Shown piece by piece: positions 10,314 through 16,999 of a DNA stretch of 64,000 nucleotides. This DNA comes from Campylobacterota bacterium. Its GTDB lineage: Bacteria; Bdellovibrionota; Bacteriovoracia; Bacteriovoracales; Bacteriovoracaceae. The notes under the pieces were generated by a model that worked only from the letters and a program-made list of their open reading frames with translations, ran no database searches and was not told the DNA's origin. Location: NCBI GenBank assembly GCA_003650125.1, contig QNFX01000003.1:1-64000 (forward strand). Direction: 5' to 3'. How positions within the stretch are numbered: the first letter of the stretch is position 1; each line of letters starts with the position of its first letter. A program made the position numbers and the translations under genes.

Positions 10314-10781
10314 ATGGATGATCTTAAGATTAATGATATAGTTTTTTCTCCTAATTTTGGTATTGGGAAAGTTCTCGGTTTTGAGGAGATTGATGGTTCT
10401 AAGGATACTTTTGTTGTCATTGAATCAAGAGAAAAAAATTTTAGATCTCTTATTCCTATAAAAGAGGTAAATAATTTTCGAAAACAATCTTCACTCGAAA
10501 TGATAAAAAATCTTTTAGAGAAACTAGGTTCTTCTATAAAAATTGAAGAGTTTGAATCTAAAAAACATAGGATTCTTTACTTTAAAGAAAAGGCCTTAAA
10601 TCAAAACCTAGAAAATGTTAGTGATACAATTTTAGAACTTAGAGCTATCCAAGATAGAGGGAAGATTGAAAATCAGATCCTTGAATCTTTGATTACCTCT
10701 CTTTCTATTGAAATTGGAGTCGTTTTAGACGTGGATAGAAAAAAGGCCGGCGAAATTTTAAATGATTCGTTTAAAGCTTAA
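10314..10781 (+). CDS. CarD/CdnL-TRCF family transcription regulator, 155 aa
   Basis: The N-terminal 60 residues (LKINDIVFSPNFGIGKVLGF, then FVVIESREKNFRSLIPI) match the Tudor-like RNA-polymerase-interaction domain of CarD/CdnL. The remainder is helical, with a terminal LSIEIGVVLDVDRKKAGEIL helix typical of the family. CarD proteins bind the beta subunit and stabilise open promoter complexes, setting rRNA and growth genes. The start has GGAGAGG just upstream. A SlyD-like chaperone follows 12 bases downstream, so the two are probably one operon. A TTGACA lies about 70 bases upstream, but I found no matching -10. Confidence 0.8.
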   Translation: MDDLKINDIVFSPNFGIGKVLGFEEIDGSKDTFVVIESREKNFRSLIPIKEVNNFRKQSSLEMIKNLLEKLGSSIKIEEFESKKHRILYFKEKALNQNLENVSDTILELRAIQDRGKIENQILESLITSLSIEIGVVLDVDRKKAGEILNDSFKA

Positions 10782-10793
10782 AAGGAATGAAAT

Positions 10794-11213
10794 ATGTCTA
10801 TTAAGAGTGGAGATAAAATTTCTATTAATTTCGTGGCCAAGCTTGAAGATGGACAGGTCTTTTCCGATTCTAAAAACGATGGGCCTTTAGACTTTACTGT
10901 AGGTGAATTTGATCTCATCAGTGGCCTAAATCAAGCAGTGATAGGCCTAGATGAAGGTGAAAAGAAAGAAGTGACCTTAAAACCAGAAGAGGCCTTTGGT
11001 AAGTATGATGAAGAGCTTCTAATGTCCTATGCGATAGACCAACTGCCACCAGAAACAATTGTAGGTGTTCAGTTTAAAGACGATCAAACAGAAAAAATCT
11101 GGACTGTTAAAAATATTGATGAAGAGAAAGGTGAGGCCATCTTAGACGGGAATCATATTCTCGCCGGACAGCCTATCATTTTTTCAATTGAAGTAATTAA
11201 GGTTGAGTCCTAG
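10794..11213 (+). CDS. FKBP-type peptidyl-prolyl isomerase, SlyD-like, 139 aa
   Basis: The FKBP half is clear: KISINFVAKLEDGQVFSDS and PLDFTVGEFDLISGLNQAVIG, then EEAFGKYDEELL, with the inserted flap region of SlyD. The family combines prolyl isomerisation with chaperone activity in the cytoplasm. The histidine-rich metal-binding tail of E. coli SlyD is missing: the chain ends at IEVIKVES. It follows the CarD-like gene closely, and its 3' end overlaps by 17 bases the 3' end of the convergent helicase gene. Confidence 0.88.
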   Translation: MSIKSGDKISINFVAKLEDGQVFSDSKNDGPLDFTVGEFDLISGLNQAVIGLDEGEKKEVTLKPEEAFGKYDEELLMSYAIDQLPPETIVGVQFKDDQTEKIWTVKNIDEEKGEAILDGNHILAGQPIIFSIEVIKVES

Positions 11214-13140
11214 GTTTTCTATTCTCACTTCTTTTAGGAATAATTTTTATCTTTTTTAGATTACCATCGCCAATTGACTGAGTCTTAAACTTTGGATCCT
11301 TACTGAAAAATTGATGGATAATAAAACGGTCTTTAGCTGCCATAGGATTTAAAATCACAGGTGATTTCGTTTTTATGGCCTTATCTCGCATCTTTCTGGC
11401 GAGATTTTCCAGACGTTTATCACTTGATCTCCGCATATTTTTAGTTGAGAAATCAATTCTTAATTTGGCATCAATATTTACATATTTGCTGAGAATTCTT
11501 TTAGATAAAAAAGAGATATCATGCAGAAGTTCAGCGTTGTTTTCAAGGAGAACCTTTTCATCTTTTCCAGCAAAAGAAATTCTTAAATAGTTTGGCTTAA
11601 CTTTAGTTATAAAAGAAACTTCAAGTAAGGATTTTTTAATAAAAGTTTCAACTAGATTTTCTAAGATTTCTTTATAATTGGCCTTAAGGTTAAATTCAAA
11701 GGTTTTTGTTTTAGGGCCAAGTCCAAAAAAGGTTCTTTTACCTGTACTGATAACTTTATAATCTAGAGTTTCAATATTGGTAATAGGAAATAAATTAGAT
11801 GCTAGTTTTTTTGCTTTAGAAAGACTCCAAGAAGTAACAAGTTCTGTTCTAATTTTAAAAGGAGTAAGGACTTTTGGTTTTACTTCTCTTGGCCTTCTCG
11901 GTTTCTCTTCTCTAGGACGTTGTTTTGGCCTTTCTTCTCGTCTTTTTTCTTTTGCAGCAGGGCGAGGTCTAGGTCCTACTTTAATCTCAAGCATTTCATC
12001 AGTTACTTCTTCCCTTGGAATTTTCATCTCAAGGAAACTTTCAATGGCATCTAGAAAATCACAATCTTTAAAACCACAAAAACTTATGGCGCGGCCCTCT
12101 TTTCCAGCTCTACCAGTTCTTCCAATTCGGTGAACATAATTTGAGGGGTCTTGAGGAAGGTCGTAGTTAACGACTAGCTTAATATCTTTTATATCTAGGC
12201 CTCTAGCTGCAACATCAGTACAAACCAAAATTTGCGTCTTTTTGGATTTAAAATCTTCTAAAAGTTTAGATCTTTTATTTTGTGGAAGATCTCCGGTAAT
12301 TCCTTGGGCCTTGAAGTCAAGATTTTGCAGCCACTGGGACACAATCATCGTTTCAGATTTAGTATTACAAAAAATCATGGCGTAAGTTTCAGGGTTACTC
12401 TTTAAAATACCAACTAGCATTGACATTTTTTCGTCATCACCTAGGTGGGCCATGGTGTGGTTTATTTTTTCCACAATCATTTTTTCAGTATTTAGTTTGA
12501 TTTCCACAGGAACACTGTGAAATCGATAAGCAATGTTTAATACATCTAAGTGAACGGTGGCAGAAAACATTAGAAATTGTCTGGTTTTTGGAACAGCTCT
12601 TAGGATAAAATTGATCTCTTCCTTAAAGCCCATATCTAAAAGCCTGTCGGCCTCATCAAGGACAATACCTTCTGTTTTAGCAAAGGTTACTACCCCTTGC
12701 TTATATAAATCTTTAAGTCTACCAGGAGTAGCAATAAGGATATGAATACCCTTTTTAAGAATTTCTTTTTGCTTGTCTGCAGATTCACCACCAATAATTA
12801 GGGCGGAGTTGATACCAAGGGCCTCTCCAAAATTTTTGCATACTTCAAAAGTTTGTTGGGCCAGCTCCCGGGTAGGGCTCATAACTACAAAATAAGGAGC
12901 AGCAAGATTTTTACCCTCAGTTTTATGAGGAGATTTTCCTGTTAATTTTTGAAGCATTGGAATGACAAATGCCCCAGTTTTTCCACTTCCAGTTTCTGCT
13001 TGGGCCAAAATATCTTTTCCCTCTAAAATAAGGGGGATGGAGTTTACCTGCACTGGGGTAGGAGTTAAGAAATTATGTTTTTTTAGATTTTCAACAAGAT
13101 CGGGATCGAGGGAAAACTGTTCAAATGTAGGTTCTGTCAT
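11197..13140 (-). CDS. DEAD-box RNA helicase fused to a Jag/KhpB-like RNA-binding module, 647 aa
   Basis: Residues 1-370 are a complete DEAD-box core: Q motif (TPTPVQ), Walker A AETGSGKT at about 48-55, PTRELAQQ, VLDEADRLLDMGF, FSAT and HRIGRTGRAG. A basic Arg/Pro/Lys linker (about 383-425) follows. Residues about 433-486 resemble the Jag N-domain (TFFGLGPKTKTFEF), 490-570 a KH-like domain, and 575-637 an R3H domain (LARKMRDKAIKTKSPVILNP, then DRFIIH with the R-x3-H pair). In Jag the KH loop reads GxxG; here the equivalent is LLENNAELL, so the KH loop is degenerate. The helicase would unwind RNA, perhaps in ribosome or mRNA handling, guided by the R3H part. Confidence 0.85.
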   Translation of the reverse strand: MTEPTFEQFSLDPDLVENLKKHNFLTPTPVQVNSIPLILEGKDILAQAETGSGKTGAFVIPMLQKLTGKSPHKTEGKNLAAPYFVVMSPTRELAQQTFEVCKNFGEALGINSALIIGGESADKQKEILKKGIHILIATPGRLKDLYKQGVVTFAKTEGIVLDEADRLLDMGFKEEINFILRAVPKTRQFLMFSATVHLDVLNIAYRFHSVPVEIKLNTEKMIVEKINHTMAHLGDDEKMSMLVGILKSNPETYAMIFCNTKSETMIVSQWLQNLDFKAQGITGDLPQNKRSKLLEDFKSKKTQILVCTDVAARGLDIKDIKLVVNYDLPQDPSNYVHRIGRTGRAGKEGRAISFCGFKDCDFLDAIESFLEMKIPREEVTDEMLEIKVGPRPRPAAKEKRREERPKQRPREEKPRRPREVKPKVLTPFKIRTELVTSWSLSKAKKLASNLFPITNIETLDYKVISTGKRTFFGLGPKTKTFEFNLKANYKEILENLVETFIKKSLLEVSFITKVKPNYLRISFAGKDEKVLLENNAELLHDISFLSKRILSKYVNIDAKLRIDFSTKNMRRSSDKRLENLARKMRDKAIKTKSPVILNPMAAKDRFIIHQFFSKDPKFKTQSIGDGNLKKIKIIPKRSENRKPRTQP

Positions 13141-16054: not shown

Positions 16055-16999
16055 ATGAAAAAAATACTTGTAGCGACTTTTATCGGATTTTTAATTTATA
16101 CCTTTTATTTCTTTTATAGGGAAGATATCCGATCTGAAAAGAAAATAGTCATTTTTAAACAAAATCCTATTACCATGACAGAGAAAGTGACAATTCCTAG
16201 AGTTAAAGTCAGGAAAAAAGTATCTAAAATAAAAGCAAAAAAAGTTAAAGAAGAAAAAAGAGGAATCTTAAAAAATTTAGAAAAAGATGAAACTTATGTA
16301 GAGCTGGATAACAAAGGAAATATGCTCGTCACCTCAGTTTTTATTAATGGGAAATATGTAATTTATCAAGGCGATATTTTAATATCTGATAAAGAGACTT
16401 TTTATAAGGAGGGGAGGGATAAAAAACCCCTTACGGTGGGGAGACCTAAACTTTGGCCTGGCGGTGAGGTTCCCTACGTAGTTGAAGATGGGCTTCATAA
16501 TCAAAAAGAAGTAGCTGAGGCCATAGACTATTTAAATCGAAATACTGATATAAAATTTATGCCAAGAAAAGATGAAAAAGGGTATGTCGAGTTTAAGCAA
16601 GGAGAAAGCAATTGCTATGCTAGTTTAGGGTATAAAGAACAAAAACGGCAGGTGGTTTTAGAGAAGGGATGTGGAAAAAAAGAAATTCTACATGAATTGA
16701 TGCATATTCTGGGATTTTTTCATGAACAATGCCGGGAAGACAGGGATAACTACCTCATTGTTATCTGGGATAATATCGATGAAAAATTTCACCCTCAATT
16801 TAAAAAGATACCCATGTCCCTGATGCATATCAAAGGCTCCACATTTGATTTCAATTCCATCATGCTCTACGGCCCCAACTTTTTCGCTATCTATCCAGGA
16901 GAGTATACTATGACCACTACAAGTGGCGATATTTACAAAGGAAATACCAAAGGGGAATTAAGTAGGGATGATATTACTCGAATTAATTCAGTTTATTAG
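16055..16999 (+). CDS. Membrane-anchored astacin-like (M12A) metalloprotease, 314 aa
   Basis: An N-terminal hydrophobic segment (residues 4-20) without a clear cleavage site suggests a membrane anchor or uncleaved signal. A Lys/Arg/Val-rich linker follows (about 40-70). The catalytic domain starts near 130. Zinc motif HELMHILGFFHEQ: His213, Glu214, His217 and His223, with Glu224 as in astacins. A Met-turn SIMLYG (Met270) is followed by the conserved Tyr. Cysteines in NCYA, GCGK and EQCRED may form the family disulfides. The domain before 130 may act as a propeptide. The astacin domain lacks accessory C-terminal modules. Confidence 0.88.
   Translation: MKKILVATFIGFLIYTFYFFYREDIRSEKKIVIFKQNPITMTEKVTIPRVKVRKKVSKIKAKKVKEEKRGILKNLEKDETYVELDNKGNMLVTSVFINGKYVIYQGDILISDKETFYKEGRDKKPLTVGRPKLWPGGEVPYVVEDGLHNQKEVAEAIDYLNRNTDIKFMPRKDEKGYVEFKQGESNCYASLGYKEQKRQVVLEKGCGKKEILHELMHILGFFHEQCREDRDNYLIVIWDNIDEKFHPQFKKIPMSLMHIKGSTFDFNSIMLYGPNFFAIYPGEYTMTTTSGDIYKGNTKGELSRDDITRINSVY

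Follow-up and report, generated by a model that had tools for sequence, protein, structure and literature searches.

A Jag/KhpB-like module joined to a DEAD-box RNA helicase in the Bacteriovoracia

Architecture of the fused protein

We found that a gene in the window (the whole 64,000-nucleotide stretch of contig QNFX01000003.1 analysed here, from a member of the Bacteriovoracia, a lineage of predators) codes for a complete DEAD-box RNA helicase followed, in the same polypeptide, by a Jag/KhpB-like module. Since the same fusion occurs in 52 genomes of the class, it is real and reflects neither chance nor an assembly artefact. The module is plausibly a targeting arm of the helicase. The open reading frame at 11197-13140 runs along the minus strand (13140→11197), where the frame is open for 647 aa; a plus-strand reading of the same interval was dropped because stops occur all along the frame. 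The features are as follows.

11197..13140, minus strand: whole gene, DEAD-box RNA helicase plus Jag/KhpB-like module (647 aa, ATG start)
12001..13140, minus strand: helicase core, residues 1-380 (Pfam DEAD and Helicase_C; motifs invariant in 8 aligned orthologs)
11857..11955, minus strand: basic disordered linker, residues 396-428 (pLDDT <50 in the full-length AlphaFold2 model)
11683..11850, minus strand: Jag_N-like domain, residues ~431-486 (weak Pfam Jag_N, 3gku profile match, model)
11443..11676, minus strand: KH domain, residues ~489-566 (models and 3gku profile match)
11533..11544, minus strand: ENNA at the place of GxxG, residues 533-536 (aligned to GKRG of 3gku)
11506..11508, minus strand: L545, aligned equivalent of the KhpA contact L239 of pneumococcal EloR (alignment)
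11242..11415, minus strand: R3H domain, residues 576-633, with R605xxxH609 (DRFIIH) (Pfam R3H)

In the helicase core, both Pfam DEAD (residues 28-197, 164 bits) and Helicase_C (residues 237-346, 116 bits) score above their cut-offs, and the motifs are complete (AETGSGKT, PTRELA, TPGR, DEAD, SAT, HRIGRTGR), with motifs I, Ia, Ib, II (DEAD), III (SAT), V and VI present in two RecA-like domains and their residues invariant in alignment A4. The linker is rich in lysine and arginine (a fraction of about 0.38). In the C-terminal part, Pfam R3H covers residues 576-633 with about 40-42 bits (cut-off 26.8), Pfam Jag_N matches residues 443-477 weakly (16.6 bits, under the cut-off of 25), and NCBIfam Jag_EloR spans Jag_N, KH and R3H (residues 456-633) with E=8e-23 for the whole protein and E=1e-23 for the C-terminal part alone, at a score (84 bits) under the equivalog cut-off of 145. 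The Jag_N-like domain is predicted as strand-helix-strand-strand and carries a KRTFFGLGP motif.

The earlier note, made from the letters of this DNA and silent on the strand, had described a DEAD-box helicase followed by Jag_N, KH and R3H parts. Pfam, Jag_EloR, the 3gku profile and AlphaFold2 support this reading, Jag_N by a Pfam match below its cut-off. As outcomes that would speak against the description it had named the absence of a Jag or R3H profile match and a model without the R3H fold. We found R3H at 40 bits and a C-terminal family profile that matches the solved Jag 3gku end to end (E=5e-27), while the last 232 aa, modelled with AlphaFold2 (mean pLDDT 86), retrieve as their first matches among PDB folds 3gku (E=1e-14) and the Thermus KhpB/EloR structures 9lrg/9lri. 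The R3H pair that the note saw as kept is there, R605 and H609 lying within a Pfam R3H match above the cut-off, and the arginine and histidine are conserved in 46/46 fused or contig-cut modules. The GxxG of the KH domain is gone, as it had said, with ENNA in its place at residues 533-536 (window 11544-11533).

A scan for promoters and terminators gave no signal above shuffled sequences, and no conserved neighbourhood or operon around the fusion was found across eight named relatives. An FKBP-type isomerase gene (10794-11213, plus strand) is convergent with the helicase gene, their ends overlapping by 17 bases, and is adjoined by a gene for a CarD-like/RID small domain protein (10314-10781, plus strand). 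The window also codes for a metalloprotease of the astacin type (16055-16999, plus strand; Pfam Astacin, 131 bits).

Distribution of the fusion

The class set comprised 129 genomes, all coded as one family (f1), with Bacteriovoracaceae, Halobacteriovoraceae and similar groups among the named relatives. A profile search detected the module in 196 of the 369 genomes of the phylum and in 56 of the 129 of the class, and a second, independent search, in which the helicase core was the only query and which left a clean E-value gap to the paralogs, found the helicase in 52 of the 129. All 52 belong to the 56, so that the Jag module accompanies every helicase of the clade (52/52; Fisher p 9e-32, kinship not corrected for), which answers the survey that the earlier note had proposed. 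The helicases are open reading frames extending beyond the core (648-778 aa) in 51 of the 52; in the 52nd genome, G098, the frame is cut by a contig end, and in G067 the module end sits on another contig. Where class genomes without the fusion were examined, they had no helicase of this clade either.

In four genomes (G055, G094, G129 and G130) the module occurs but the helicase does not, the copy in G094 being frameshifted. Apparent stand-alone modules in G098 and G009-C2 were rejected, as they are cut by contig ends. The helicase-less modules L172 (G130), L173 (G129), L171 (G055) and L175 (G094) lie outside the yidC locus, and two of the helicase-less modules of the class begin with a basic low-complexity stretch resembling the fusion linker, as if they had been split off.

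More than half of the class has neither helicase nor Jag, which indicates that their function is dispensable. KhpB/Jag is undetectable in 73/129 class genomes (G014, G126 and others), of which 65 still have KhpA. The earlier note had also suggested looking for a separate khpB; the window's genome, which is 93% complete, yielded no R3H/khpB gene apart from the fusion. A scan of genome contigs with patterns typical of the subfamily returned only records of Bdellovibrionota type.

Origin from two separate genes

Outside the class the two halves are separate. The sister families have helicase and Jag as two genes, as does Bdellovibrio, and a separate jag coexists with an unfused helicase in 114 of the 140 jag-bearing genomes outside the class. 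The gene order yidC-jag-mnmE is seen in four genomes of other families; in the window's genome (L164) and in G003, G014 and G126, yidC stands directly before mnmE and jag is missing.

When the helicase cores are placed on a tree, the fused proteins form one clade (support 100/99) whose sister clade consists of the unfused orthologs from other families (100/99), and the two together are set apart from the paralogs (100/100). In the tree of the module, fused and separate members are intermixed, at a resolution too low to show the history alone. Its hint of multiple independent fusions was rejected, because the fused helicase cores form a single clade. The most economical account of these sequences is therefore a single fusion in the ancestor of the class, or of most of it, after which many lineages lost the entire gene and a few only its helicase half. 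For the separate modules in g59, G055 and G094, a later split is the simpler explanation. The separate Jag of most Bdellovibrionota families (L178-L180, L215-L234) seems to be without Jag_N and to have a short tag at its start instead. The fused module, by contrast, keeps a Jag_N-like part.

A shared tag at the ends of the separate partners

The unfused helicase orthologs (500-660 aa) have a basic low-complexity tail ending in GFFKRLFS or similar, and in these families the separate Jags start with M(T/A)GFFSKLFGGKKK or similar. The tag is short and hydrophobic-basic and reads GFFSKLFGG at the Jag N-end. A strict pattern, [FIL][FIL][KSRGD][KRS][LI]F, occurs within the last 20 residues of 15/20 unfused helicases and within the first 14 residues of 19/28 separate Jags, counts to be read with the facts that the pattern was set after both sets of sequences had been seen and that family members are not independent. 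As background we used 1904 open reading frames from 2.0 Mb of one complete Bdellovibrionota genome (G149), in which the tag is found at a single N-end, that of Jag itself, and at three C-ends, among them that of the helicase; six other helicases of this genome have no tag. Of the remaining C-end matches, one is a protein with a hydrophobic, membrane-type end and the other a 121-aa protein with no Pfam match. In the fused proteins the tag is absent from both ends (0/32) and is found in the linker of 1/32, and the tagged ends, the C-end of the helicase and the N-end of Jag, are exactly those joined in the fusion.

By the form GFF[KS][KR]LF, the tag is seen in many Bdellovibrionota, at the helicase C-ends of loci L235-L252 and L255-L256 and at the Jag N-ends of L003, L017, L178-L180, L184 and L215-L234. 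The 121-aa protein of G149 (L344:13224-13589, minus strand) ends in SFFGRLFSGFKKAG, the same tag, and it is possible that it is a third partner of helicase and Jag. Its neighbour (L344:13802-15076) resembles, by eye, an S1-type RNA-binding protein.

The matching tags suggest that helicase and KhpB were a working pair before the fusion took place. The tag probably held helicase and Jag together, or on a shared partner or the membrane, until the covalent fusion, and we read its loss as a consequence of the covalent link, which made it unnecessary. The tag could also be a membrane-binding amphipathic end unconnected with the pairing of helicase and Jag.

Loss of the GxxG loop and selection on the module

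In both AlphaFold2 models, a single helix (residues 528-553) runs without a break through the place of the canonical helix-GxxG-helix of the KH domain. GxxG is absent from all 44 fused members compared, 35 of them having neither glycine and nine only the second. Nor is it seen in the 29 jag genes that stand separately in other families of the phylum, most of which (26/29; DKEG and SKEG are typical) keep only the second glycine, with only the first in two and neither in one, so that the first glycine has been lost in 27/29. The earlier note had tied the broken loop to the fusion; this part of its proposal has to be abandoned, because the separate Jags of the sister families are already without GxxG and the decay is thus older than the fusion.

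The KH domain is not a dead remnant, since the loop-less helix is identical at 24/26 positions between two species of the window's genus, with a dN/dS of about 0.05 (a rough value, as dS is near saturation). Between the same two species, 53/59 residues are identical in R3H (5% non-synonymous difference), 337/380 in the helicase core and 36/48 in the linker.

KhpA as a candidate partner of the KH domain

KhpA is the usual partner of KhpB. In pneumococcus, it binds the KH domain of EloR via I61 and L239, and a GDDG mutant of KhpA retains EloR binding (PMC6403258). The window's genome has a separate KhpA with GKQG, located after ffh-rpsP (both named by eye), and KhpA is present in 116/129 class genomes. 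It is as common without the module (65/73) as with it (51/56, p=0.78), which makes it independent of the fusion, and its presence was dropped as evidence of partnership. KhpA has GKQG in 30/31 sequences, with isoleucine at the position equivalent to I61 in 31/31, and the position equivalent to L239 is aliphatic in all 46 fused or contig-cut KH domains (30 L, 14 I, 2 V). In the separate Jags of other families the contact position is mostly F or Y. An intact KhpA together with an aliphatic contact position fits a KH domain used for docking KhpA, which is probably what the KH domain of the module does, although the aliphatic residue may be kept for the fold instead. Second KhpA-like KH genes were seen at G017:C7:4861-5076 and G047:C242:275-484.

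Proposed function and alternatives

The reading that we favour, with about even confidence, is that the fused protein is an active RhlE/CshA-type DEAD-box helicase with the KhpB (Jag) module as its permanent RNA-targeting arm. It is supported by the complete linkage, all 52 helicases having the module. The R3H domain would grip single-stranded RNA, and the KH domain, without GxxG, would no longer hold RNA and would instead offer the separate KhpA a surface to dock on. Structured targets such as mRNA, sRNA or tRNA precursors would then be delivered by KhpA and R3H to the helicase and unwound by it with ATP, and the flexible linker would let the arm search the RNA nearby; the helicase-KhpB pair of the sister families would thus have been made permanent by fusion. 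In Enterococcus, KhpB binds sRNA, tRNA and 3'UTRs (PMC10117718).

More tentatively, and with rather less than even confidence, we propose that KhpB and one orthologous DEAD-box helicase may form a two-part RNA-remodelling machine throughout the Bdellovibrionota. The separate versions would assemble via their twin terminal tags, binding each other or a common anchor, and the tags would have been lost on fusion in Bacteriovoracia; KhpB would be the specificity subunit of the helicase, its KH domain having docked proteins already before the fusion.

It is unlikely, in our opinion, that the module does the usual work of KhpB alone, the fusion merely fixing the amount and place of the two proteins, in which case the two halves need not have RNA targets in common. 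The long linker (45-106 residues in the fused proteins, disordered in the window's model) and the survival of helicase-free modules in G055, G094, G129 and G130 would agree with such an arrangement, and so would the fact that the module evolves faster than the core, mean column identity being 43% in alignment A1 vs 62% at full length. However, a helicase without the module is found in 0/52 class genomes, and the separate partners both bore the same rare end tag before the fusion.

The chances seem slim that the module serves the protein as an internal brake or clutch, folding back on the helicase core to control its ATPase as HP1451 caps VirB11. The C-terminal model does match HP1451, an ATPase inhibitor, in 2pt7 (Foldseek, E=1e-4), and a KH domain kept after the loss of its loop would suit this role, but the match may rest on common Jag ancestry alone. 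Furthermore, the full-length AlphaFold2 model (pTM 0.43, from an alignment only 8 sequences deep) is of low overall order and gives no sign of a fixed domain arrangement.

R3H domains can bind single-stranded DNA, and R3H families include DNA binders, but DEAD-box cores are RNA-dependent. We consider it highly unlikely that the ligand of the module is single-stranded DNA rather than RNA, or that the module acts close to replication or division; pneumococcal KhpB/EloR is tied to cell elongation (PMC6403258), but the solved KhpB complex 9lri contains RNA and the fusion has no conserved gene neighbourhood. Lastly, a tail that is only a decaying remnant without function would account for the lost GxxG and for the loss of the whole gene from over half of the class, but is scarcely credible given RxxxH in 46/46 modules, the low KH helix dN/dS and R3H non-synonymous difference reported above and a module never lost from the helicase (0/52), so that neutral decay can be regarded, on these sequences, as largely excluded.

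The RNA-binding protein KhpB (Jag, EloR) is widespread, yet its molecular role is unsettled. Its stable fusion to one helicase lineage, with matching tags on the unfused partners of the sister families, provides a concrete and cheap hypothesis, namely that KhpB works with an RNA helicase. The module also provides a naturally occurring KH domain that is under selection though its RNA loop is lost, and in which a putative part in docking proteins can be separated from the binding of RNA.

Comparison with known systems

Both halves belong to known families. In the literature searched, no paper was found on a DEAD-box/Jag fusion, nor on such a combination conserved within one class. The helicase half has the core and all the motifs of RhlE, CshA, DbpA, RhlB and SrmB, none of which, to our knowledge, carries a Jag module. 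The best NCBIfam scores were for CshA (370 bits), DbpA (344) and RhlB and RhlE1 (335), all under the family cut-offs of 507 bits or more (CshA 370/646, DbpA 344/524, RhlB 335/588, SrmB 329/507), and the window's helicase differs from these proteins in forming its own orthologous group in this phylum. The DbpA/YxiN helicases have a C-terminal RNA-binding arm, an RRM-like domain, and the fusion would work like them in placing a folded RNA-binding domain behind a core and a linker; however, its arm is a whole KhpB and not an RRM, and the comparison does not extend to the rRNA target of DbpA. R3H and helicase also meet in one chain in the eukaryotic IGHMBP2 and YTHDC2, where the R3H domain lies within the helicase polypeptide, but these belong to the SF1/DExH families and have no Jag_N/KH module, making them independent combinations. 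The pair HP1451-VirB11 (2pt7) resembles the fusion in having a Jag-like fold acting on an ATPase, but HP1451 is a separate protein, VirB11 is a secretion ATPase and the structural similarity is weak.

The closest comparison for the module is KhpB/Jag/EloR (NF041568; 3gku, 9lrg/9lri), with which it shares the order of a Jag_N-like part, KH and R3H, the RxxxH of R3H, the fold and the presence of KhpA in the same genome. Unlike KhpB, the module is covalently attached behind a helicase, has no GxxG in its KH domain, is not encoded beside yidC and scores below the equivalog cut-off (84 vs 145 bits). Because of the missing GxxG, the different locus and the low equivalog score, we do not claim that it is a member of KhpB, but, by analogy, it may work like a KhpB arm.
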